DNA of 64,000 bases from a virus, in IMG/VR virus record IMGVR_UViG_3300036861_000572, positions 1 to 64,000 of that record, one strand, 5' to 3'. The translations under genes and the position numbers were made by a program. The notes beneath the pieces are model-generated. The model did no database searches and had not been told where the DNA came from. It saw only the letters and a list, made by a program, of their open reading frames with translations. Below are positions 7,040 through 40,570 of this stretch, piece after piece. Position 1 is the first letter of the stretch; each line of letters begins with the position of its first letter.

Positions 7040-7661
7040 TTTATTTGATAACCAGCGGCAGCCCTACGAGCGGCCCACGGTCACGCCGGCGGGCACGGAC
7101 CCGTACCGGCTGACCGCCCCACTGGACGACCGGCCAGGGCGCGGCGAGCCACGCCAGCCCACGACCGGCGAGCGGCTGGATACCAGCGCGATCCGGGTGC
7201 GTCTTCGGCAGGCGGCAAAGGACACACAGCGGCCACCGGCCTACTACGCAGCCCAGTTGCTGCTGGACCTGTCGGCCGCGATCAACGAACTTGACCGGCT
7301 GCGCACCCACCTGGCCGGGATCGAGTGGGCCGCCGCCGACGCGGCCGGCGCGCCCGCCCAGGCGATCTGCCCGGCGTGCCGGGTCCTGAAGCCCGGCCCC
7401 CACGACCCGGCGTGCTGGCTCGGCCAGGTCCTGCTGGCCGAGGCCAAGGAGACCGTTAAGCGGCTGGCCGCCGAGGCCGACCGGATCTACAAGCCAGGCG
7501 GCGACCCGGAAGTGGAGCGGCTGCGGGGCCTGCTGCGCGAGCTGGAATGGGCCGGCGTCCACTCCTGGAACTACGAGGAGTCGGGTTGCCCCGTCTGCGG
7601 TTCAGAAGAACCCGGACCCCACAAGCCAGGCTGTGAGCTCGCCGCCGAGCTGGGCCGGTGA
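7032..7661 (+). CDS. Protein with two zinc-knuckle-like motifs
   Basis: 209 aa. Two similar Cys motifs (CPACRVLKPGPHDPAC near 115 and CPVCGSEEPGPHKPGC near 185) sit in a mostly helical protein with heptad-like sequence between them (LLAEAKETVKRLAAEADRIY). Such duplicated C-x2-C...H...C motifs recur in actinophage early proteins of unknown role. It has its own promoter-leader directly upstream, unlike its neighbours. Confidence 0.65.
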   Translation: MSSLFDNQRQPYERPTVTPAGTDPYRLTAPLDDRPGRGEPRQPTTGERLDTSAIRVRLRQAAKDTQRPPAYYAAQLLLDLSAAINELDRLRTHLAGIEWAAADAAGAPAQAICPACRVLKPGPHDPACWLGQVLLAEAKETVKRLAAEADRIYKPGGDPEVERLRGLLRELEWAGVHSWNYEESGCPVCGSEEPGPHKPGCELAAELGR

Positions 7662-7906
7662 CCGAGACCGAACGCCGCGAGCTGGCGCAGCGGCACGCCG
7701 GCGAGGTCGTCGAAGGCTCCGGCCAGCCCGTCGGACCGCGCCGCCTCGGCGAGATGGTCTCCGTCCGCCTCGAACCCGCCCTCGCCGCGGCGCTCCGGGA
7801 CGTCGCCAGCCGGAACGGCACGACGGTCTCGGACCTGCTGCGCGACGCGGCCGTCAAGGCCGTCGCCGCCGAGGGGTACTGCCGCTCGTGCTTGGGCCGT
7901 CGCTGA
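7658..7906 (+). CDS. Ribbon-helix-helix (CopG/Arc-type) protein
   Basis: 82 aa from a GTG at 7658 overlapping the previous stop. Residues about 33-70 (MVSVRLEPALAAALRDVASR then NGTTVSDLLRDAAVKAV) match a beta-strand followed by two helices of the ribbon-helix-helix fold. The C-terminus ends with a CRSC pair. It probably binds DNA as a dimer. It is the last gene of the rightward operon, facing the lysis genes. Confidence 0.7.
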   Translation: MTETERRELAQRHAGEVVEGSGQPVGPRRLGEMVSVRLEPALAAALRDVASRNGTTVSDLLRDAAVKAVAAEGYCRSCLGRR

Positions 7907-8279: not shown

Positions 8280-9244
8280 GGCGTAGCCTCCTTCGGCCGG
8301 ATCGAGATGAGCGCCTCACCCTCGTAGGCAGGGTGGCCAGCGACCTCGAGCTTGGCGGCGACCAGCCCGGCGAGCAGCTCGACCTGGGCGTCAGACAGGG
8401 TGGCGCCAGCCCTGACGGCGGTGAGGACGTCGGCGGTATCCTCGCCCAGTTCCTTGCGGATCTGTTCGAGGTTGGCCGGGTGGGCATCCGGCTCGGTCGC
8501 GTCGCCGCGGTAGATCAGCCCGTAGATCCGGTCGGTGTGGGCCTTGACCTTCGCGTCGACGAGCTTGCCCAGGCGGTCCCATTCGTCTTCGGTCAAGGGG
8601 GGCACGTCCTCACCTCCGAACAGGGTTGTGAACGCGGCGTCGGTGGCCTTGTTCCAGTCGCACCGGCCCACGCTCGGAACGTCGTGGATGCAGCCGGCCT
8701 CGCCGTTGGTGCACTGCCACACGTCGGGCACGAGGGGCCAGCCGCCCGGCTGCCGCCACGGCGCCGCCCACGGCGTGTCCGAACGGTAGCGGGCGATCCA
8801 GCCAAGGCACCCGCCGGGGATCCGGCCCGGGTCGCCGAGGGTTTCCAGGACGAACGCGACGCCCGAGTAGAACAGCCCTCGGCCACCGAGGGCCGCGCGG
8901 ACCCGCGCGCACCAGCGGTCCGCCCAGGTGAGCAGCGTCGCGGGGCCGAGGCCGCCCGAGTCCTCGAGGTCCAACGCCCAGGCGTCGCCGGCTCGCCAGC
9001 CGGCGACGCGGACGACGGCGACGAAGTGGTCGGCTTGCGCATCGACCGGTCCGGAGCCGGGCCTGGCGAAGTGGTAGGCGGCGCGGGGGTGGCCGGCGGC
9101 GGCCCGCCAGCGGCCGGTGAAGGCCGGGTCGGTGAACGAGCCGCCCTCGGTCGCCTTGAGGATCACGAACGACTCACCAGAGGCGAAGTAGCGGCCCGCA
9201 TCGAAACTGGCCTGGTGATGCGATAGGTCGCAGCCAGTTTTCAT
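8276..9244 (-). CDS. Endolysin, GH25 lysozyme domain
   Basis: 322 aa. Residues 1-200 are a glycoside hydrolase family 25 domain: Asp in GCDLSHHQ, the catalytic pair region in AWALDLEDSGG, WQCTNGEAGC, and the terminal RCDWNKATD. It cleaves peptidoglycan glycan strands. The remaining about 120 residues are helical (WDRLGKLVDAKVKAHTDRIY) and may bind the cell wall or holin, but match no binding module I recognise. There is no signal peptide, so holin-dependent release is expected. Confidence 0.9.
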   Translation of the reverse strand: MKTGCDLSHHQASFDAGRYFASGESFVILKATEGGSFTDPAFTGRWRAAAGHPRAAYHFARPGSGPVDAQADHFVAVVRVAGWRAGDAWALDLEDSGGLGPATLLTWADRWCARVRAALGGRGLFYSGVAFVLETLGDPGRIPGGCLGWIARYRSDTPWAAPWRQPGGWPLVPDVWQCTNGEAGCIHDVPSVGRCDWNKATDAAFTTLFGGEDVPPLTEDEWDRLGKLVDAKVKAHTDRIYGLIYRGDATEPDAHPANLEQIRKELGEDTADVLTAVRAGATLSDAQVELLAGLVAAKLEVAGHPAYEGEALISIRPKEATP

Positions 9245-9843
9245 CCACTACCCTTCTTGGCCGCCCGGTATTTCCGATCAAGCATCCGACGGCACGCTCG
9301 GCATGCTCTGGCTCCATCGCGTTTGATATAAGTATTGGCCTGGTCGAACGGGTGGCCGCGTTTGCAGTGCGTCTGTGCGGCGGCTCGCTCTTTGCGCCGC
9401 TGGATCGTCAGGCCCCGCAAGCCATTCTCGCGGTGCGTCACGGCTTCCAGGTGCGCGGGCCCATATTCATCAGGGATGGCTTTGACGCATGCCGGTACCC
9501 GACACAGGTGATCTGGCTCATAGCCCTTGGGGATGGGACCGACTAGCAGCTCGTAGGCGTAGCGGTAGGCATAGACCACCTTGCCATCGACCCCAAATCT
9601 GCCGTAGCCATCAACTTTGGCTCTGGTCCACAGCCAGCACGGGCCAAGCTCGGGACGATAAGAAGGAATCGGGCCGTGCGTATTGACCTTGTCCCAGAAT
9701 CGTTCCTCAGCGGAGAGCTTCGGCGCTGGGGTCCGCGCTGGCAACTGGCCTCGGTAGTACGCCTTGCCGTAGTGACTCCGGCAGAGACCTCGTGCGATGA
9801 GCGGTTGCCCGCAAGCAGACATGGAGCAGGTACGCTTTGCCAC
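9241..9843 (-). CDS. Free-standing HNH endonuclease (HNH-C)
   Basis: 200 aa from a GTG at 9843 with GGGAGG upstream. It opens with a zinc-finger-like module (CSMSACGQPLIARGLCRSHY), then an HNH_3-type core with CWLWTRAKVDGYGRFGVDGK and YEPDHLCRVPACV, then a second zinc motif (CKRGHPFDQANTYIKRDG ending in CRAC). It probably nicks or cuts DNA as a homing endonuclease. Its TGA overlaps the ATG of the endolysin, and it has its own promoter-hairpin leader, so it looks like a cassette inserted in front of the lysin. Confidence 0.85.
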   Translation of the reverse strand: MAKRTCSMSACGQPLIARGLCRSHYGKAYYRGQLPARTPAPKLSAEERFWDKVNTHGPIPSYRPELGPCWLWTRAKVDGYGRFGVDGKVVYAYRYAYELLVGPIPKGYEPDHLCRVPACVKAIPDEYGPAHLEAVTHRENGLRGLTIQRRKERAAAQTHCKRGHPFDQANTYIKRDGARACRACRRMLDRKYRAAKKGSG

Positions 9844-9861
9844 GCCATTGCCTCCCTGAAG

Positions 9862-9925
9862 GTGGTGGCCAGGCCCCCGGTGTTCACAGCACGCGGGGGC
9901 CACTCATTGCAGCTATTTTAGCAGG
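9862..9925 (-). promoter_or_regulatory. Repeated promoter-hairpin leader, copy 2 (before HNH-C)
   Basis: On the minus strand TGC-TAAAAT (-10 at 9920-9915) is followed by 13 bases, then stem GGCCCCCG (9901-9894), a bulged C, inner stem and loop, and the closing arm 9879-9872. The box GGCCACCACC follows, then the ribosome site. Compared with other copies, the stem bases change in compensating pairs. Confidence 0.65.
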
Positions 9926-9935
9926 TCAGGGCCAC

Positions 9936-9962
9936 TTTCTAGATTCTAGGTTCTAGGATCTA
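9936..9962. repeat. Tandem TTCTAGA-type heptads (operator-like array)
   Basis: Heptamers TTCTAGA, TTCTAGG, TTCTAGG and ATCTAGT follow one another just upstream of the rightward ribbon-helix-helix gene, over its -35 region. An almost identical array lies at 13729-13748. Tandem short repeats in front of a ribbon-helix-helix gene suggest an autoregulatory operator. Confidence 0.5.
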
Positions 9963-9974
9963 GTACCTACTGGT

Positions 9975-9986
9975 TACACTCCTGGC
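9975..9986 (+). promoter_or_regulatory. Leaderless promoter
   Basis: TACACT at 9975-9980 ends 6 bases before the ATG at 9987 (TACACT-CCTGGC-ATG), placing the transcription start at or next to the start codon. There is no Shine-Dalgarno sequence. The rightward gene at 16465 has the matching string TACCCT-CCTCGC-ATG. Confidence 0.45.
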
Positions 9987-10292
9987 ATGGACGAACACGT
10001 CTGCGACGGCGACCAGCCGGACTGCGCCGCGTACCTGCACTACCTGGACCCGGCCAACCGCCAGCCCGCCGAGGGCGCGGCGGCCTACCGCGTGCCACGA
10101 CGGCGGCTGTCCCGCCACGTCCCGATCCGCTTCGAGGCCGACGTGATCGATCGTGCCAAGGTCGTCGCGGAGGCTGAGGGCCTGACGGTCAGCTCGTGGA
10201 TCCGGCGGCTGGTCGAACGCGAACTTGGCCCGCCACGGCCGGCCGGGACCTACAACGACGGCGCCGGGCGGTCGCGCTTCACCGTCACGTAG
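9987..10292 (+). CDS. Ribbon-helix-helix DNA-binding protein
   Basis: 101 aa. Residues about 40-75 (SRHVPIRFEADVIDRAKVVA then EGLTVSSWIRRLVEREL) are a strand-helix-helix unit as in Arc/CopG and BrnA-like antitoxins. The N-terminus carries two Cys and a His (HVCDGDQPDCAAYLH). It is a lone rightward gene within the leftward lysis region, transcribed from a leaderless promoter overlapped by tandem TTCTAGA heptads that may be its own operator. No toxin partner gene is seen next to it. Confidence 0.7.
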   Translation: MDEHVCDGDQPDCAAYLHYLDPANRQPAEGAAAYRVPRRRLSRHVPIRFEADVIDRAKVVAEAEGLTVSSWIRRLVERELGPPRPAGTYNDGAGRSRFTVT

Positions 10293-10416
10293 ACGCTTCG
10301 GCGGGTCGTGGCGAGGGTGGCCACCGGTCATCGATCGCCGAACCGTCGTCCTTGCCTTTCGAGTGGGGGAGCACGCACGGCGGACCCTCGGTGGAGCCCT
10401 GGGTGACCAGGGGCAC
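10285..10416 (-). CDS. Possible 43-aa protein
   Basis: A GTG at 10416 with GGGGCGGG upstream opens 43 codons (begins VPLVTQGSTEGPPCVLPHSK) ending 4 bases inside the end of the convergent gene at 9987-10292. It follows a hairpin at 10420-10447 and lies downstream of the tail-lysis genes. Composition is plausible but no relative is recognised. Confidence 0.3.
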   Translation of the reverse strand: MPLVTQGSTEGPPCVLPHSKGKDDGSAIDDRWPPSPRPAEAST

Positions 10417-10419
10417 GCG

Positions 10420-10447
10420 CCCGCCCCTGCGCCCGAGCGGGGGCGGG
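10420..10447. terminator. GC-rich hairpin downstream of leftward genes
   Basis: CCCGCCCC (10420-10427) and GGGGCGGG (10440-10447) make an 8-bp stem 5 bases past the stop of the gene at 10453. No U-tract is present. It may end or process the leftward late message. Confidence 0.4.
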
Positions 10448-10452
10448 AGCGT

Positions 10453-10869
10453 TCAGCGCTTCAGCTTCGCCAGCTCCTGCTCCAACCGCTTGATCCGCGC
10501 GTCCTGGTCGGCGTTGGCAGTCGCGTTGCGGGGGATCTGGGACAGTACCTCGCGGAACCGGGCCAGCCGCTCGTCGCCCTGCCGCATCGCGTCCGCATAC
10601 CCTGGGAACGCGACCCCGCACGTCGTCCGGCCCACAGACCCAGGAGCGGGGGGGCTGAGGAAGCACGCCGACAGCGCCGAGTTCTCCACCGTCATCGTCA
10701 GCAGCGCCGCGGCCAGGATGATCGCGACCGCGCGGCGCCGCCGGGTGGCGAGCTCGTCGCGCGGCACCAGGTCCTCGCGCAGCCCTTTGACCTCGGCACG
10801 CAACGTCTCGACGACCTTGACCAGCTCAGCGAACGATGCCGCTCGGCCCGGTCCACCGCTGCTCGTCAC
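10453..10869 (-). CDS. Membrane protein with coiled coils, possible lysis accessory
   Basis: 138 aa from a GTG at 10869 with GGGGGG upstream (an ATG 5 codons earlier is possible). An N-terminal amphipathic helix (FAELVKVVETLRAEVKGL) is followed by one hydrophobic segment (AVAIILAAALLTMTVENSAL), a short loop with two Cys, and a C-terminal coiled coil (DQDARIKRLEQELAKLKR). The topology suggests a spanin-like or holin-associated protein, but no family is recognised. It overlaps the preceding gene. Confidence 0.55.
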   Translation of the reverse strand: MTSSGGPGRAASFAELVKVVETLRAEVKGLREDLVPRDELATRRRRAVAIILAAALLTMTVENSALSACFLSPPAPGSVGRTTCGVAFPGYADAMRQGDERLARFREVLSQIPRNATANADQDARIKRLEQELAKLKR

Positions 10870-11014
10870 CGTTATCCCCCCCATCCTGTTCGATGGCCTG
10901 TTCGAGCCGGGCGACGGCCTGTTCGAGCCGGTCGGTCAGCCGTTCCGCGCGCGCGACGAGCACCCGTGACGCGGTGACCTTTTCTGTCTCGGCCTGCCAT
11001 GGCCAGCGCACCAC
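10826..11014 (-). CDS. Small helical protein of lysis region
   Basis: 62 aa. It starts MVRWPWQAE and continues as a long charged helix with heptads (AERLTDRLEQAVARLEQAIE). Short proteins starting with this Trp-rich motif are common near actinophage lysis genes; function unknown. It ends inside the following gene in another frame. Confidence 0.55.
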   Translation of the reverse strand: MVRWPWQAETEKVTASRVLVARAERLTDRLEQAVARLEQAIEQDGGDNGDEQRWTGPSGIVR

Positions 11015-11017
11015 GGG

Positions 11018-11287
11018 TCACCTCCGCTCTTCGGCGAGGCGGGACACCAGCTCGTTGGTCTTGATCAGGGCCGGCAGGACCCGGTCCTCGAACACCTGCC
11101 GCAGCCGGTCGTTCTCGGCGCGGAGCTGGTCGTAGTCGGCGCCGCGGCGGATCTTGCCGGTCAGGAAGCCGACGATTACGGCGCCCGCGACACCGAACTG
11201 GAGCCACTGGCCGACCTGGTCAGGGACGCCGGGGGTGGCCTGCGCCAGGACCGATGAGGCGGCGGCGGCGAGCAGGGCGAGGCGCAT
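11018..11287 (-). CDS. Small membrane protein with coiled-coil tail, holin-like
   Basis: 89 aa. An N-terminal hydrophobic or signal-like stretch (LALLAAAASSVLAQA) is followed by a transmembrane segment (FGVAGAVIVGFLTG), a basic turn (KIRRGADY) and a helix with heptads (LRAENDRLRQVFEDRVLPAL). This layout is frequent among second holins of actinophages and fits its place in the lysis region. Confidence 0.6.
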   Translation of the reverse strand: MRLALLAAAASSVLAQATPGVPDQVGQWLQFGVAGAVIVGFLTGKIRRGADYDQLRAENDRLRQVFEDRVLPALIKTNELVSRLAEERR

Positions 11288-11336
11288 GGTGCTCCGAGGG
11301 TAGGCGAGGCCCTCGGGGGAAGGGCGGCGGATCAGG

Positions 11337-11435
11337 TCAGGGCGGGGTGGCGCGCACGATGAAGATCCAGGTCTCGGCCACGATCCAGCTGCCGGCGGCC
11401 CAGAACAGCCAGCCGGCCTGCCACGCCGGGGTCAT
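11337..11435 (-). CDS. 32-aa single-pass membrane protein
   Basis: An ATG at 11435 overlaps the TGA of the upstream gene (ATGA). The 32 codons encode one hydrophobic, Trp-rich segment (WLFWAAGSWIVAETWIFIV) with few charges. The translational coupling and membrane-like composition make it likely to be a real micro-protein of the tail-lysis operon, perhaps holin-related. Too short for family assignment. Confidence 0.55.
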   Translation of the reverse strand: MTPAWQAGWLFWAAGSWIVAETWIFIVRATPP

Positions 11436-11740
11436 TGCTGGCGGAACTGGTCAGCAACGCCTAATCCGGATACCTGTCTCAAAAACACGCGGAAGTCGTG
11501 GGCGGGGGTCTGGGCCACCTCGCCGCGGAAGACCGCCATCAGCGTCCCGAGCTCGGAGACCACGCTCTTGTAGAGGTTGGCGTCGTCGACCGGGACATTC
11601 ATCGCGCCGAGGTCGGCCACGCTCTTGGTATCGAGGTAATCCTTAACCGCCCTGACGTGCTCCTCGAGGACCGCCGCGCGGATCGCGATGGCGGCGACCT
11701 GCCGGGCGATGTCGGCCGCGGTGACGTCCTTGCCGGCCAT
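11432..11740 (-). CDS. Small helical late protein
   Basis: 102 aa from an ATG at 11740 preceded by AGGAGG. Contains a helical N-terminal half (ADIARQVAAIAIRAAVLEEH then KDYLDTKSV) and an all-helical C-terminus. It lies between a minor tail protein and the lysis genes. No known domain; possibly a tail or virion accessory protein. Confidence 0.6.
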   Translation of the reverse strand: MAGKDVTAADIARQVAAIAIRAAVLEEHVRAVKDYLDTKSVADLGAMNVPVDDANLYKSVVSELGTLMAVFRGEVAQTPAHDFRVFLRQVSGLGVADQFRQQ

Positions 11741-11750
11741 GCGAATCCTC

Positions 11751-12425
11751 CTAGATCGATCCGAGGTCCTCGACGAGGAGCTGCGCGGGGTAGGTCGCCG
11801 CAGCCTGCACGACGGCGGTCCCGGCACCCCCGGTCGTGCGCTGGCCCTTGATCTTGTACGTCGCCGACAGGGGGCTGGCGCCGTTGACCGCGGCGTAGAA
11901 CATCGACCCGCCCTCCGAGCCGACGCTGGCGGCCGGCGGCTTCAGCGAGACGGCCTGGCGTTGCGCGACGCCGGCCTCGACGATCCGCAGCTCCAGGGCT
12001 TCGGTGGCGTCGATCGAGACCGACCGCCACGTGAACGAGACCCGGAAGTAGTGGTTGGCCGGGATCGTCACGCCGGCGCCGGGGACGAACAGGTCGGTCT
12101 CCGAGCCAGCGAACGTGGTCGAGTTCGCCGTCCACTCGGTCAGCTGCAGCACCTCGTACCCGCCCGCGGGCGCGGTGACCGGGCTGGCCGGCCCGGCGGC
12201 GACGAGGTATGGGCCCATCTTATGCAGCAGGATGAAGTCGCCCACCGTCGGGTAGTAGCCCGGCAGGACCGGCACGTTCGTGGACGGGTTGGCCGCGTCG
12301 CCGAGGTCCACCGAGATGGTATTGGTCCCGGTGTCGACTGCGGCGACGGTGCCGTGGGTGAGTTGGGCCGGCAGGGGCAGCTTCGGGCGGAGCTGGTTGC
12401 CCAGCCGCCGCATCGCCTCTTTCAC
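11751..12425 (-). CDS. Minor tail protein
   Basis: 224 aa from a GTG at 12425. The sequence begins with a helix, then turns into beta-rich domains (HGTVAAVDTGTNTISVDLGD, an OB-like beta barrel frequent in tail proteins, and a second sandwich with SFTWRSVSIDATEALELRIV). It follows the large minor tail genes and precedes lysis genes, the usual place for tail-tip or fibre-base proteins of siphoviruses. Confidence 0.65.
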   Translation of the reverse strand: MKEAMRRLGNQLRPKLPLPAQLTHGTVAAVDTGTNTISVDLGDAANPSTNVPVLPGYYPTVGDFILLHKMGPYLVAAGPASPVTAPAGGYEVLQLTEWTANSTTFAGSETDLFVPGAGVTIPANHYFRVSFTWRSVSIDATEALELRIVEAGVAQRQAVSLKPPAASVGSEGGSMFYAAVNGASPLSATYKIKGQRTTGGAGTAVVQAAATYPAQLLVEDLGSI

Positions 12426-12598
12426 TGGCGCGCCATCCTCCCGCGACGGGCTATGCTGGAATCCGTTCAGGGCGCGCAAGCGCGTCGGTGAGGCCGCGGC
12501 CAAAGATCCGGCGAGCCGAACGGCCTAGGCGCAGGCCCCTCCTCCGGGTCGCGCCCGGTTGTAGAACCTGCGTGGCCAACTAGGGGACCCTGGACGGC

Positions 12599-13711
12599 CT
12601 ACTGGTCCGGCAGCTCCTGCCTCGCCTTGAGCGTGAGTTCCATCGGCCCGCCCTTGGCGCCCAGCGGCAGCGTGAGCCGGTCGATGACGAAGTTCGCATC
12701 AATGCCGCTGCGGCTGTAGGAGAGGTGGACGCAGTCGCCGGCGTCGAGGAACGGCAGCGGCAGGCACCGCAGCACGACCTTCCGCGCGATCCCCTTGACG
12801 AGCTGCAGCCGTGCCTGCGCTGCCGCGACCGCCTGCGCGTTCGTCGCCACGTACGGGGAGGTCATGGGGTAGACGACGCGGCCGAACCGGCCCACGTACG
12901 TCGGGCTGGTCACGTCGGTGTCCTCCGCCACGCCGACCACGGCGGCGCCGTTGGTGAGGTTCTCGCCGCGGCACACCACCACCGAGTAGGAGTCGCCGTC
13001 GTCCCAGTTGTCGTCGACCGACTCGATCGTGGACGTGCCGTCGTCGGCGAACGACCACACCACCGGGGCGTCCTGCGGATCCGGCTCCGGGTGCATCCGG
13101 AACACCCCGAGCGTGTCGGCATAGACGGCCATCCCGATCGACGCGGCCATCTCGCGGACCTTCGCCGCCGGGTCGTCGGCCTCGGTGAACGTCAACCCGC
13201 CCGCCGGGACCAGGAAGTCCGAGGAGGCGAAGTTCACGTCGGGGCTTGGCAGCAGCGTGTTGATCAGCGTCTCGATCGCGGCGTCGTACCTGGTCCCCGG
13301 CGCGACGAACAGGGGCAGGGTGAGGCGGTTGCGTTGCAGCTCCCGCATCCGGTCGAACGCCTTCAGCGGCACCTCCGGCCAGGTCCCGCCGCTCGAGCCG
13401 AGGCGGCCGGTGAACACCGCCACCAGTTCCGAGGATCCGTCGGGGTAGGTGACGCCGGTGCGGACCCGGATGCCGTTGCCCAGCGGCGCGAGCAGGTGGG
13501 ACGGCGAGGTGGGGGTAATGGTGCCGTCACGGTCAACGAGCTGCAGGTCGATGGTCGAGCGGATGTCCACGTTCCGCTCGCGGGTCACGCTGCCCGAGAG
13601 GGTGGCGGTGACCTCTTGGACCTCGGCGTCGTTTTGGAGGATGTGGACGGTGGTGACCAGGGTGTGGTCGGTGGTGCAGCGGGCGGTGAAGTCGTCGGAG
13701 ACCGGGAGCAT
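12599..13711 (-). CDS. Minor tail protein (DUF5047-like)
   Basis: 370 aa. The early part has the Ser/Thr-rich beta pattern DIRSTIDLQLVDRDGTITPT and YPDGSSELVAVFTGRLGSS, followed by LKAFDRMRELQRNRLTLPL; I recall this layout from actinophage minor tail proteins carrying DUF5047. The C-terminal half continues with alpha-beta sequence (VVYPMTSPYVATNAQAVAAA). It is probably part of the baseplate or tail tip next to the tape measure and receptor-binding genes. Confidence 0.7.
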   Translation of the reverse strand: MLPVSDDFTARCTTDHTLVTTVHILQNDAEVQEVTATLSGSVTRERNVDIRSTIDLQLVDRDGTITPTSPSHLLAPLGNGIRVRTGVTYPDGSSELVAVFTGRLGSSGGTWPEVPLKAFDRMRELQRNRLTLPLFVAPGTRYDAAIETLINTLLPSPDVNFASSDFLVPAGGLTFTEADDPAAKVREMAASIGMAVYADTLGVFRMHPEPDPQDAPVVWSFADDGTSTIESVDDNWDDGDSYSVVVCRGENLTNGAAVVGVAEDTDVTSPTYVGRFGRVVYPMTSPYVATNAQAVAAAQARLQLVKGIARKVVLRCLPLPFLDAGDCVHLSYSRSGIDANFVIDRLTLPLGAKGGPMELTLKARQELPDQ

Positions 13712-13721
13712 CTGGCCGCCT

Positions 13722-13819
13722 ACTTTCTAGATTCTAGAATCTAGAATCTGGTCGGCGGGCAGGTCCCGGATGGATGTCCGGCTAAGCATGGGACCTCGTG
13801 ATTCTCTGGCCTGTCCGCC
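13722..13819. promoter_or_regulatory. Intergenic region with TTCTAGA array and nested hairpin
   Basis: The gap between two tail genes holds TTTCTAGATTCTAGAATC and further copies (13728-13749), the same array as at 9936. It also holds a nested palindrome: GGCGGGC (13754-13760) with 13813-13819, AGGTCCC (13761-13767) with GGGACCT (13790-13796), and a small inner GGA/TCC stem. It may be an operator plus an RNA structure controlling the downstream minor tail gene. Confidence 0.45.
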
Positions 13820-13822
13820 GCC

Positions 13823-16447
13823 TCATGCCGGCTGCTCGACCTCGTAGTAGCGGACCCGCCACTGCCTGACCGGCACCGACGCGTCGGTGCCGCCCTCGAA
13901 CTCCCGCGCCCGGTCAACAAAGCGGATCCACCACTGCTCATCGGCGAACGGGGAGCGCAGCAGCAGGGCGTGCTGCTCACGGCTCAAGGCCAGCAACCTG
14001 AGCCCCTCGTCCCGCGTCAGGCTGGTGAAGGTGACGGTGCCGTCGTCGCCGAACACCGAGTCGGCCAGCACGACCGCCCGGTCCCGCCCTTGCAGCTGGT
14101 AGACCTGCGCGTTCTCGGCGGTGTCCAGGGTCAGGTCGGGCGTGAGGATCCGCAGGGAGAGCCACGGGTGGTACGGGTCGACCAGGTACCAGCCGCCCGC
14201 GTTGGACACCTCGGCGGCGCCGTAGGCGTAGCTGGTCGAGGCGACCGCCGTCCCGGTGACCGAGTTGATGACCCGGACGCGGTACTGCCTGGGCCGGCCC
14301 CGGGGCAGGGTGTAGTCGTACACGGTCTCTTCCTGGGCCTCGTCGCCGCCGAGGGTCTTGTCGGCCCAGCCGGGGTAGGTCCGCCACTGCGCGGTGGCGA
14401 GCTGGCCCGGCACCCACGTGTCCGTGCTGGTGCCGCCTTCGCGGAGCATCGCCCGCGACGCCCACACCTGCACGCCGCTCACCGACGCGGTGTTTTCCAC
14501 CGACGCGCCGGCCCACATCGCCCCGGCCGGCGCGGTCGCGGTCACGGTGTAGCGGACGAACCCGGTCGTGATCGTCATCGACACGTTCGAGCTCGACAGC
14601 GCCGTCCCGGTCGGGCCGTGCCACATCAGGAACAGCTTTGAGGAGAACGACGCCGACGCCTTCAGCGACACCGTGAGCGTGTAGCTCTTCCCCGGTACCA
14701 CCGGGAAGGCGTAGCTGGGATCGAACAGGGTCAGGGCGTTCTGGTTGATGCCCATGTCGAGGTTCGAGAAGCTGATGCCCGACGTCCAGCGAATGCACCC
14801 CTCGCCGGTGTCCATCCCGGTCGCGTCGTCGAACACCACGCCGTCCGAGGCGGCGCGGCCGTAGAACCCCGCCGTCGAGCGCTCCACCGCCCCGCACGCC
14901 GCCACCTGGTTGGGTAGGAGGTTCAGCGACGACGCGGCACCGTCGAGGGTCTCCAGCAGCACCGTCGAGACCGACTGCTGCCCACCGGACGTCCAGGTCG
15001 TGCTCGAGCCGGGCCACATGCCGACGTGGTCGACGTAGTGAATCTCCGCCGCCGCCGGCACCAGCACCCGGACGCGGACCTTCACCGTCCGTGCCCCGGC
15101 CGGCGCCACCGCGGTCAAGGTGGAGGTGGCGTTGAAGTTCGCCGCCGAATCGGTGACACCGGAGCCGTTGACGGTCGCGCCGATGATCACCCCGGCGGCG
15201 TCGAGCCAGTCGACCTCGACCCGACACGTCCTGGTCGAGGCATTGGCGGCGAACTGGGCGTAGAACGTGTACGTCCGGCCGGCCACGACCGGCGAGACCG
15301 GCGAGGCGAGCGTGGCCGACATGTCCGCCCCGGCCGTCGCCGTGAGCCGCATGCTCGCCGCGCCGGGGCTCACCGATTTCGTGGTGGAGCGGACCGCGGC
15401 GCAGTTGACCAGCACCGTCCACGTCCCCGCGCCGCCGGCCGAGTCCTCGAAATCGGAGTCCTGCGCCGACAGCATGTTCTGGTTCGCCGCCACGGTCAGC
15501 ACCGCACGCTGGTTCGCGTCGTCGGCGGCCACCGCGAGGGTCGGGTCGGCCGGCGGGCCCAGCGACACGGTGAACGCGCCCGAGCTCGCCCACGCCGTCC
15601 ACCAGACCGCGCCGTTGATCAGCTGCGCCGCCCGGCAATAGGCCTTGTAGGTGACGCCGTTGGCGAGGTCCCGCCCCACCTTGAACGACGTCGACGCGGT
15701 CGGCAGCTCCCCGGAGTCCCAGTAGCTCGCCGAGGTGTCGGCCGAGAACCCGGCGGCGCCGTACTGCGCGGCGGTGAAGACCTTCACCTGCGCCCTGGCC
15801 TGCGCGTCGCCGTCGGGGTTGGCGGCGTAGACGAAATCAACTTGGGGCCGGGTCGTCGACGCGCCCGTGATCGTGGGCGTCCCGATGATCGTGGGCCGCT
15901 CACGGATGTCGACATCCAGGTACCACTCGAAGAAGCGAAGGTAGGAGGTCGCCGACGACTGGCCGACTTGGTTGACGTAGCCGTAGGCCTCCATCTGGCA
16001 GGCGTTCACGCTGGTCTGCGTCCACGGCTTGCCGAACGGGTCGGCCGGGCGCCACGCCCCCGTGAAGTTGATCGGCCCCACCGAGGCGGTCTGGCACACG
16101 TCCCTCGGGCTCGACGGCGAAATGCTCGGCGTCGTCGTCCGCACCGTCAGCGACGCCTTCTGCCAATGGCCCGAGTCGGCCGACTGCCGGCCCATCCGCG
16201 CGCGGCAGCGCAGCCGGTTGACCTTCTTCGCCGTGCCGTCGACCGCGACGCCGAGGTCGCCCATCACGGTCGCGAACCAGATATTGGGGTAGCCCTGCCC
16301 GCCGACGCCCATGGTCACGTACGTCGAGTCGCTGTTGTCGTTAATCTGGTTCGCCAGCGGCGTCGTCCCGGTGATGTTCCGCGCGGCGGACACGTCGGAG
16401 GTGGGGAGCAGGGTGACGTACCCGGGGTTGCCGGCACCGTCGCCCAA
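13823..16447 (-). CDS. Large minor tail protein with carbohydrate-binding-like sandwiches
   Basis: 874 aa from a TTG at 16447 with AGGAGG upstream; no better start is present. After an N-terminal beta domain, residues about 190-300 look like a fibronectin type III repeat. About 325-480 and 525-690 resemble CBM4/9 jelly rolls (for example YTFYAQFAANASTRTCRVEV and GKSYTLTVSLKASASFSS). The C-terminus reads as a tail-attached alpha-beta domain. It probably forms the tail tip or receptor-binding fibre and binds host cell-wall glycans. Confidence 0.75.
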   Translation of the reverse strand: MGDGAGNPGYVTLLPTSDVSAARNITGTTPLANQINDNSDSTYVTMGVGGQGYPNIWFATVMGDLGVAVDGTAKKVNRLRCRARMGRQSADSGHWQKASLTVRTTTPSISPSSPRDVCQTASVGPINFTGAWRPADPFGKPWTQTSVNACQMEAYGYVNQVGQSSATSYLRFFEWYLDVDIRERPTIIGTPTITGASTTRPQVDFVYAANPDGDAQARAQVKVFTAAQYGAAGFSADTSASYWDSGELPTASTSFKVGRDLANGVTYKAYCRAAQLINGAVWWTAWASSGAFTVSLGPPADPTLAVAADDANQRAVLTVAANQNMLSAQDSDFEDSAGGAGTWTVLVNCAAVRSTTKSVSPGAASMRLTATAGADMSATLASPVSPVVAGRTYTFYAQFAANASTRTCRVEVDWLDAAGVIIGATVNGSGVTDSAANFNATSTLTAVAPAGARTVKVRVRVLVPAAAEIHYVDHVGMWPGSSTTWTSGGQQSVSTVLLETLDGAASSLNLLPNQVAACGAVERSTAGFYGRAASDGVVFDDATGMDTGEGCIRWTSGISFSNLDMGINQNALTLFDPSYAFPVVPGKSYTLTVSLKASASFSSKLFLMWHGPTGTALSSSNVSMTITTGFVRYTVTATAPAGAMWAGASVENTASVSGVQVWASRAMLREGGTSTDTWVPGQLATAQWRTYPGWADKTLGGDEAQEETVYDYTLPRGRPRQYRVRVINSVTGTAVASTSYAYGAAEVSNAGGWYLVDPYHPWLSLRILTPDLTLDTAENAQVYQLQGRDRAVVLADSVFGDDGTVTFTSLTRDEGLRLLALSREQHALLLRSPFADEQWWIRFVDRAREFEGGTDASVPVRQWRVRYYEVEQPA

Positions 16448-37840: not shown

Positions 37841-40570
37841 TCAGAAGATTTCCGGGGCCGGCAGGGCCTCGACGCCGAGGTGCGCGCGCACGGCATGACC
37901 CCACAACGCCAGCGTCACCGCCGGCAGCGGCGACAGGTCCACACCGACGTTCTTGCGGACCCACAGCCACCGGTCGCCCAGATCCCGCTTGAGCGCCCCC
38001 GCGACGGCGACGTCCAAGTCGCCCTGGCCGAGGTGACGCACCGTCGACGGTTCATCCACCAACGGGTTCGCCCCGGTCGCGTCGTAGAACGCCCCGGACG
38101 CGCCGGCGATCTCGCCGACCGACGGCTTCAGGATCTCCAGGCTGGCCGCTTCGGCCTCGGCGATCAGGGAGTTCGCCGGCCCTGAGGGGGCGATGACGAT
38201 CGCGCACGGCGACCAGCGGTCAGCCCGGTCGACCCGTTCGCGCAGCCACGGCACGACCCACGACCCGCCGCGGCGGTGCTCCACCAGTTCGACGTGGCGC
38301 AGGCCGTCGGCACGGCAGCCCACCACGCCGATACTCGCCCAGGTCCGGTCGGGGGTCATGTCGACCGCGAACGCCGGCCGGTCCACGATCTGGCTGGCAG
38401 GGTCACGGATCGCCTGCCACGCGGCCTGGCCGATCACCAGCCATTCCGCCGGGGTCTCGTCCAGCCACTGGTTCAGGTAGGCACGGCGGAACTCGCCCAG
38501 GTCCATGGAGGCGAACTCGGCCGCTACGGCCGCCTCGGTCACGGTATGGCCCAGCGCCGGCATGCACGCCCACCACGTCGCCGGGTCGTCCGCCGGCGCG
38601 TCGTTCGGCGCCGACCACTCGAAGTACGCCACCCCCGAGGTCAGCCCCGCCTCGGCGGCGAGGCGGCCAGCCTCCACCTTCCCCCACAGGTACGGCGAGA
38701 GGCTCTTGGACTTCCCCGCGGTGGAAACCACATCGAGCTGGGGCTGCGGCCGGGTGATCATCGCCGGCGCCATCGCCTGCTCGACCCGGGCGTCCTCCCG
38801 GGCGAACGCCTCGTCGATCACGCCCTGGTCCAGCGTCGGGCCATGCCCAGAGTCGTCGGTCGGCGCATCGATGGCGTGGATCGACCCGTTCCGCCAGCGG
38901 ATCGCCTCCTGGCCGATCTGCTTGCGCACCGTGAACAGCGGCCGGAACGCAGACGCCTCAAGGATCGGGAGGTGGTCGTCTTCCCATTTCTCCCTGGCCT
39001 TCAACCGGGTCTGCGCGGTGTAGGCGATCCGCTGCGCACGGCCGAACGCCTGCGCCCGGTGAACCATCTTGGCCAGCAGCAGCGTCGTGTTGTGCGTAGG
39101 AACCAGATCACGGCCAGCGAGGAACAGGCCGTCAGGCGAGTCGACCTTGATGCACCGCACAGGCCGCGACGGCACCGGCTCGATGCTGGCGAGGCTGACG
39201 GCGTGTAGCTCGCCAGCCCGGGCCCGCGATGCCTGGATGCGAGCGAGCTTCCGGGGAAGGCGGAACGGGATCGGATCGCTGGCTTCGGGTGTGAAGCATA
39301 CCCGCCACCGACGGCCTACCTCCCGGCCGTTCAGGACCGCGGCGTTCTCCCGGATCGTGGCCCGCCAGCCCAGCGAGCGGGCTAGGTAGAGCGCCGCGTC
39401 GGCAAGCACCTGGCGAGTCGAGCAGAACTCAACCCGAGCCGTTCCGCTGCTACCCATGGAGATGGAGCCGTCGGTGTCGAGCAAGCCCTGTAGGAGCGCC
39501 AACCGCTGATCCGTGCCGGCCGTCAGGTAGATGTCCGGGACGTGCTTATCGCCGAGGACGCCAAGCGCACACAGCCGCTGCTGCATCCCATCCCCGGAAC
39601 GGACCTCCGGAAGGTTGCCACGGCGAGCAGCCCTGCTGTAGCAGCTAGGACAGAGCCCGCGCGCGATATCCCGACGCGGGCAGCCGCCTACTGAGCATTC
39701 CCGGCCCAGCTTGGTGATGCCGAGGCGGACACGCCAGGCAGTACGGTCACGTCGCGGCTGCCCGTGGATGTAGCCGGCCGCGACGATCTGCTCAAGCAAT
39801 GCGGCGAGATCCTCATCGCCGACCGTGAGCACAGCGGCAGCGCTGTGCCCGTCGCCTAGCCAGTACCCGAGAAGGTACGGGTCGATCGGCAGCTCGACCG
39901 GCTCGGACTTCAACACGCCCTGGGACGGTAGGCGGAACCGGAACTCGCGGCTTGCATACTGCTTGCCGCCCGTGGTGACCGTGCGGTTCTCCTGCCGCAT
40001 CAGCCCACCAACCAGCCCGTAGGTCGGCAGGGTGCGCCACTGGAAGCTACGGGATCGATCCGAGCGCGAGCCCGTGCTCCGCGCCGCGAGGTGGTCCTCC
40101 ACCGTCCACAGATGGTCCCGATCGGCAACCACGCTGCGGCCGTCCGTGGTCGTGACCCGGTAGCAGTCGTGGCCGTGCATGATGTCCGAGACGAACGTCA
40201 CCCGCGTTGGATGCCCATCGGGGTGGAAGACCTCGTCGCCCTCGCGGATATCCCGCAACGTGACAAACCCGCGGGTGGTCAGAACCTCGGTGTCCGCATC
40301 CAAAGCTTTCCCGCTCTGCCGCGGCACCGTCAGGACAACCCGGCGGTAGACCAGCAGGCCCGTGTCGGGATCGGTCTCTAGCGCGACGTCGGCGACGTGG
40401 CGCTGCCACGGCATCAGCGGCGTCCCCAACGCCGCCGCGAACCGGGCCAGCTCGCCGCCGCGTGTCGGCCGGTCGGTCCTCGGGGTCGTCCACCTAGGTG
40501 CGCAGGCGAGCCCGCTTGGCCCGCGCTCGCTCTCGGTCGCAAGTCCGGCACTTGCGCTGTGGGTTGCCAC
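37841..40570 (-). CDS. Terminase large subunit interrupted by an intein
   Basis: 909 aa precursor if it starts at the GTG at 40570, which lies inside HNH-E; no canonical start exists between the HNH-E stop and the conserved APRWTTPRTDRPTRGGELAR. The ATPase Walker A VPRQSGK is followed by a 406-residue intein, then TTLLLAKMVHRAQAFGRAQR. Downstream are Walker B-like sequence (GPTLDQGVIDEAFARED) and the nuclease part with AVDMTPDRTWASIGVV. After splicing it would be about 503 aa, normal for phage terminases that package DNA. Confidence 0.85.
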   Translation of the reverse strand: MATHSASAGLATESERGPSGLACAPRWTTPRTDRPTRGGELARFAAALGTPLMPWQRHVADVALETDPDTGLLVYRRVVLTVPRQSGKALDADTEVLTTRGFVTLRDIREGDEVFHPDGHPTRVTFVSDIMHGHDCYRVTTTDGRSVVADRDHLWTVEDHLAARSTGSRSDRSRSFQWRTLPTYGLVGGLMRQENRTVTTGGKQYASREFRFRLPSQGVLKSEPVELPIDPYLLGYWLGDGHSAAAVLTVGDEDLAALLEQIVAAGYIHGQPRRDRTAWRVRLGITKLGRECSVGGCPRRDIARGLCPSCYSRAARRGNLPEVRSGDGMQQRLCALGVLGDKHVPDIYLTAGTDQRLALLQGLLDTDGSISMGSSGTARVEFCSTRQVLADAALYLARSLGWRATIRENAAVLNGREVGRRWRVCFTPEASDPIPFRLPRKLARIQASRARAGELHAVSLASIEPVPSRPVRCIKVDSPDGLFLAGRDLVPTHNTTLLLAKMVHRAQAFGRAQRIAYTAQTRLKAREKWEDDHLPILEASAFRPLFTVRKQIGQEAIRWRNGSIHAIDAPTDDSGHGPTLDQGVIDEAFAREDARVEQAMAPAMITRPQPQLDVVSTAGKSKSLSPYLWGKVEAGRLAAEAGLTSGVAYFEWSAPNDAPADDPATWWACMPALGHTVTEAAVAAEFASMDLGEFRRAYLNQWLDETPAEWLVIGQAAWQAIRDPASQIVDRPAFAVDMTPDRTWASIGVVGCRADGLRHVELVEHRRGGSWVVPWLRERVDRADRWSPCAIVIAPSGPANSLIAEAEAASLEILKPSVGEIAGASGAFYDATGANPLVDEPSTVRHLGQGDLDVAVAGALKRDLGDRWLWVRKNVGVDLSPLPAVTLALWGHAVRAHLGVEALPAPEIF
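39089..40306 (-). other. Class 3-like intein with LAGLIDADG endonuclease in terminase P-loop
   Basis: 406 residues between Lys and Thr of the Walker A GK-TT. It begins with Ala (ALDADTEVLTTRG), has Trp in block B (ADRDHLWTVE), Cys in block F (RCIKVDSPDGLFLAG) and ends PTHN followed by Thr: the A1 and Trp-Cys-Thr features of class 3 inteins. LAGLIDADG motifs are LLGYWLGDGHSAA and LLQGLLDTDGSIS. A zinc-finger-like insertion (CSVGGCPRRDIARGLCPSCY) sits between them. Confidence 0.85.

Follow-up and report, generated by a model that had tools for sequence, protein, structure and literature searches.

Homodimeric LAGLIDADG homing endonucleases need palindromic targets, which in the studied cases measure at least 20 bp, and enzymes of the LAGLIDADG family cut so as to produce 3′ overhangs of 4 bases, according to the account in PMC3943268. 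For T4, co-conversion of the flanks is described as a known mark of homing (PMC2988022). Contiguous short repeats are central to another system: each dimer of omega, the ribbon-helix-helix (RHH) ParB of pSM19035, is reported to take one contiguous 7-bp heptad, direct or inverted, over promoters (PMC9499535). Heptameric repeats, including Geobacter elements, are elsewhere said to be over-represented, with an unknown role (PMC4692102; PMC4679880; PMC2700814). Here we analyzed two arrays of CTAG heptads in the virus record IMGVR_UViG_3300036861_000572 (66,041 bases), the first 64,000 nucleotides of which, about 70% G+C, are called the window. For one of them, array 2, we see an even chance that it is an empty target site for a small homing endonuclease gene of the LAGLIDADG type, whose product is probably a homodimer; in a related phage contig, G001, that gene would occupy the corresponding site.

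Array 2 and the G001 gene resemble the homodimeric enzymes of the I-CreI and I-MsoI type in having a single motif, a short chain, a palindromic target above 20 bp with a 4-base centre, and a gene lying in its own split target. Unlike in that type, the gene here is outside any intron or intein, and the site it is predicted to target consists of heptads in tandem between two phage tail genes. The arrangement also recalls the seg and mob genes of T4-like phages, free-standing homing endonuclease genes that are intergenic, present or absent among relatives, and carry a recombination signature in their flanks; those genes, however, encode GIY-YIG or HNH enzymes that cut away from the insertion site, whereas here the insertion point falls inside the supposed target. 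With the parS/operator sites of omega the arrays share contiguous 7-bp repeats, direct or inverted, that adjoin an RHH gene and cover its promoter region, but they differ in sequence (TTCTAGA versus WATCACW), in number (three or four heptads versus 7 to 10) and in that a relative keeps an array without the RHH gene. They are intergenic tandem heptamers, as are the STRR/SSR repeats of cyanobacteria, Xanthomonas and Beggiatoaceae, yet they number only two, and array 2 is an inverted palindrome that a gene splits in the relative.

Array 2 is the intact form of a site split in a related phage

A previous sequence-only reading of the window had pointed to tandem TTCTAGA heptads at two sites, and these are real. 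Array 1 (9937 to 9964) has four CTAG heptads, with CTAG at 9939, 9946, 9953, and 9960 in an exact 7-bp period (units TTCTAGA, TTCTAGG, TTCTAGG, and ATCTAGT), and lies between divergent HNH and RHH genes. Array 2 (13725 to 13746) has three, with CTAG at 13727, 13734, and 13741 in the same exact period. Allowing at most two mismatches, TTCTAGATTCTAG gave 8 matches, all within the two arrays, against 0.05 expected (standard deviation 0.26; at most 2 in 100 shuffles), and a search of the entire record with a 13-mer, again allowing two mismatches, found no third copy. CTAG itself is depleted, with 37 occurrences observed versus 76.4 expected, 7 of the 37 being inside the arrays. The two sites had been called near-identical; they do have the string ACTTTCTAGATTCTAG in common (9934 to 9949 and 13722 to 13737), but their make-up differs, array 1 being a run of direct, decaying heptads and array 2 an inverted set. 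The W positions of array 2 are T, T, A, A, giving a perfect 22-bp palindrome, TTCTAGATTCTAGAATCTAGAA, centred on CTAG.

Array 2 sits in the 111-bp gap that separates two leftward tail genes, an 874-aa gene upstream (13823 to 16447, minus strand) and a tail protein gene downstream (DUF5047, phrog_1887; 12599 to 13711, minus strand). Searching with the DUF5047 protein, we found a single relative, 88% identical, at L125 in G001 (52,448 bases, from metagenome 3300036852); the upstream gene is 85% identical there, and G001 as a whole resembles the window in blocks of 70 to 100% identity. At the G001 tail site the array is in two parts, GATTCTAGATTCTAG and GATCTAGAATCTAGTACCTAGAATCTAGAAAG, on either side of a 312-nt reverse-oriented open reading frame. 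The inserted DNA is 344 bp long (L125 5635-5978); a CTAG precedes it, and it ends in CTAG. Once these 344 bp are removed from G001, the window sequence is obtained in 118 of 119 compared bases, the lone mismatch being at the far edge. The boundary of the alignment (high-scoring segment pair) falls at window position 13734, within the central CTAG of array 2 (13734 to 13737).

The frame (L125:5631-5942, minus strand) encodes a 103-aa protein with one LAGLIDADG-like motif, AAGFFEGEG, and the TAG stop codon of the gene belongs to the CTAG of the left half-array. The protein matches Pfam LAGLIDADG_3 at E 0.0032 (17.8 bits, below the cut-off) and phrog_5046, a family labelled HNH endonuclease, at E 3.9e-12; its motif aligned with that of I-MsoI at E 0.38, and a search of annotated phages returned no match at E 0.1. 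Since the protein has 103 aa and a single motif, a dimer would be expected, and the 22-bp perfect palindrome agrees with the roughly 20-bp palindromic target anticipated for a single-motif dimeric enzyme, its CTAG centre matching a 4-base stagger. In the reading preferred here, the LAGLIDADG gene would have been gained in G001, rather than lost from the window, by insertion exactly at the central CTAG, splitting the palindrome into two half-sites. Because the palindrome would no longer be whole, the filled G001 genome would escape further cutting by the encoded protein. In this one pair of genomes, the site is intact in the empty allele and split in the filled allele, and the junction is clean.

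A 312-bp tract around array 2 (13676 to 13987), which forms the flanks of the insertion, is identical in the window and G001, one an empty and the other a filled allele. It is the longest identical run in the 5.9-kb alignment, where the next measures 91 bp, and none of 20,000 local permutations reached 312. Across all 19,809 aligned columns it is again the longest (next 167 bp), although counted there as 254 because that alignment breaks at the array. By comparison, 312-bp windows of the 5.9-kb alignment have a median of 49 mismatches, and the lowest non-overlapping window has 13. As the two alleles compared differ in being empty and filled, such identity implies either gain or loss on a near-identical background or a recent exchange.

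Several points weigh against an empty homing site. The identity of the flanks does not by itself prove homing, and a single allele of each kind, filled and empty, was found, as three protein scans of viral_contigs gave just G001. The right half-array of G001 has two extra heptads beyond what simple insertion would leave. A 22-bp palindrome is not rare either: arms of 11 arose in 3 of 40 shuffles; the window itself has another such palindrome at 13871 to 13892. The junction's choice among the three CTAGs could be one-in-three luck. The T4 free-standing endonucleases, as described in PMC2988022, cut hundreds of bases from their own gene, unlike what is proposed here. For the protein, the LAGLIDADG match stays below the Pfam cut-off, and a single-sequence structure model was poor (predicted local distance difference test [pLDDT] 53.9). 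Finally, two genomes cannot separate an insertion in G001 from a deletion in the window.

Should array 2 prove to be a homing site, it would provide an empty/filled pair for an intergenic phage LAGLIDADG gene, with a predicted 22-bp target. In the literature searched, no title or abstract opening described an endonuclease gene splitting CTAG heptads.

The second perfect 22-bp palindrome (13871 to 13892) is at the 3′ end of the upstream tail gene and is also present in G001. By eye, two tiny overlapping frames, MRRRTGQRITRSHA and MLSRTSIRDLPADQILDSRI, occur in the gap from 13712 to 13822, the second ending in array 2; they may be remnants.

Array 1 and the candidate RHH regulators

The sequence-only reading had proposed that a 101-aa RHH protein, encoded just downstream of array 1, binds both arrays and controls itself and a tail gene, or loops the DNA between them. 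The array does lie just upstream of this gene (9987 to 10292, plus strand), ending 22 bp before its start. It stands equally upstream of the divergent leftward HNH endonuclease gene (9241 to 9843, minus strand), whose GTG start at 9843 we picked from a GGAGG and from the G001 homologue. The RHH similarity of the 101-aa protein is present but weak: Pfam RHH_10 matched at E 0.0054 and DUF6364 at E 0.0016, both below the cut-off, the Protein Data Bank searches gave Mnt at E 0.089 and Arc at E 0.26, and the structure model was poor (pLDDT 50.6). Nor is it the lone rightward RHH gene, as had been thought, for an 82-aa RHH-like gene with a CopG-like match (7658 to 7906, plus strand) is an alternative candidate for the binder; its product is kept in G001, 92% identical over 79 aa.

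A rival explanation is that the 101-aa or the 82-aa protein binds the heptads as an operator, one dimer per 7 bp in the manner of omega, and represses its own promoter; the divergent HNH gene, or other genes adjoining an array, might be repressed as well. By analogy, the precedent of direct or inverted 7-bp heptads over promoters speaks for it, as do the closeness of array 1 to the start of a gene with RHH similarity and the presence of the 82-aa gene in both phages. So does the HNH locus, which spans about 80 bp in G001 versus about 600 in the window: the array and the RHH gene occur jointly in the window, and G001 lacks both there. In addition, the G001 LAGLIDADG gene has an array upstream that resembles array 1 in 27 of 30 positions by eye.

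Against this, the tail array persists in G001, as two halves, where the 101-aa protein has no match, so that array can exist without the RHH gene; the idea that this protein controls a tail gene, or loops the DNA from one array to the other, is not supported. At E ≤ 1 the protein matched none of three phage contigs, namely G001, G002 (L080), and G003 (L116), records that may be incomplete. All three carry CTAG heptads, so that, with the same reserve about the records, arrays occur without the 101-aa gene in three of three. We found no relatives of the protein in viral_contigs or annotated phages, and the heptad consensus (TTCTAGA/ATCTAGT) is unlike WATCACW. As a general account the operator appears unlikely, although the occurrence of an array beside the RHH gene at the HNH locus, together with the omega precedent, makes an operator role possible for array 1, with either protein as binder. 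The previous interpretation is therefore partly upheld for array 1, where it would concern such an operator, and not for array 2, for which an empty homing site offers the better candidate explanation. Comparison with one relative has shifted the likely function of one array elsewhere, and it cautions that a conspicuous tandem repeat next to the gene of a small DNA-binding protein is not necessarily that protein's operator.

Array 1 is related to array 2 but decayed, and it borders a region in which the window and G001 differ, with an antisense RHH gene standing beside an HNH endonuclease gene. Array 1 could be a relic or another landing site, and might in addition serve the RHH and HNH genes as a promoter or operator sequence upstream of them. 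By eye, the regions upstream of the RHH gene and of the G001 LAGLIDADG gene have ACTTTCTAGATTCTAGGT in common, followed by CTAG heptads; their likeness is partly due to the heptads that both hold. Both genes also have a TASACT hexamer 6 nt before the ATG (by eye), a motif that may be linked to leaderless actinobacterial promoters. We tried the heptads as a promoter as well, and found no sigma-70-like promoter by consensus in 9800 to 10500.

The leader of the HNH gene (9844 to 9935, minus strand) consists of TGCTAAAATA and then a G+C hairpin. Leaders of this kind, with CTGACCTGSTARAATA and then a G+C-rich hairpin, occur at four places: 9923, 45803, 54653 (minus strand), and, in G001, L365:10980 (plus strand). 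The copies at 9923 and L365:10980 precede HNH genes. Possibly this is a promoter-leader that travels with endonuclease genes.

Deletion, simple repeats and the wider distribution of CTAG heptads

Could array 2 be a scar and not a virgin target? The window would then have lost the LAGLIDADG gene between two half-arrays through their common CTAG, a 4-bp microhomology that explains the junction, and the 312-bp identical tract suits this course as well. The deletion would, however, have had to leave a perfect palindrome by chance, and insertion is simpler; we consider such a loss improbable.

It is about equally improbable that the arrays are generic heptameric simple repeats of the STRR kind, made by slippage and functionless, with the LAGLIDADG insertion being coincidental or using a permissive, recombinogenic spot. 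Heptameric intergenic repeats are described in PMC4692102 and PMC4679880, and CTAG heptad arrays are common in bacterial and viral sequences. Three consecutive TCTAGA heptads were found in 86 stretches of genome_contigs, 80 of which are listed (L126-L205), 19 of the 80 being Shewanella by title. Four CTAG heptads of any kind were found in at least 119 viral stretches of viral_contigs (L221-L339). As heptads are this widespread, we do not claim the repeat itself as new; what is specific here is the palindromic form, the location, and the fact that in a close relative a LAGLIDADG-type gene splits it exactly. Several features disagree with generic repeats. Only two arrays occur in 66,041 bases, versus many per genome in the described cases, no actinobacterium is named in the titles of the 80 listed genome loci, the insertion is exactly at the centre of array 2, and this array is inverted and perfectly palindromic. 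The same inverted arrangement occurs in none of 136 three-heptad occurrences at the 80 listed loci, 116 of which are plain direct repeats; these are overlapping matches, long arrays being counted more than once.

A last proposal, that CTAG-heptad arrays are a reusable socket in which antisense single-gene cassettes (the G001 LAGLIDADG gene, the RHH gene of the window) insert, carrying an array as their own promoter region, one cassette's protein acting on the other's target array, would set a selfish nuclease and a repressor in competition for one 7-bp code, but we regard it as a long shot.

Tandem CTAGNNN heptads with varied spacer triplets occur in very many bacteria and viruses. Mimicry of a host sequence was considered and set aside, as the titles of the 80 listed stretches (of 86) contain no actinobacterium; degenerate arrays were not sought. 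The string ACTTTCTAGATTCTAG is present in 15 viral stretches, among which that of G001 (L314) alone is G+C-rich. The other 14 were set aside because they have 30 to 48% G+C and lack a third CTAG at the 7-bp step. Arrays in two further G+C-rich contigs are intergenic, one beside a terminase gene (L080) and one between convergent genes (L116), and we saw no inserted gene at either. The relatives of the L080 terminase in annotated phages are all less than 60% identical, too distant for a presence/absence comparison.

Setting of the window

The nearest annotated relatives of the tail gene are in Streptomyces, Rhodococcus, Actinoplanes, and Arthrobacter phages, all less than 60% identical. Neither Rfam families nor tRNAs were found in the window. 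LAGLIDADG_3 matches are also present within two large open frames on the minus strand, at 39338 to 39511 (959 aa) and 52613 to 52771 (781 aa), and these are probably inteins.

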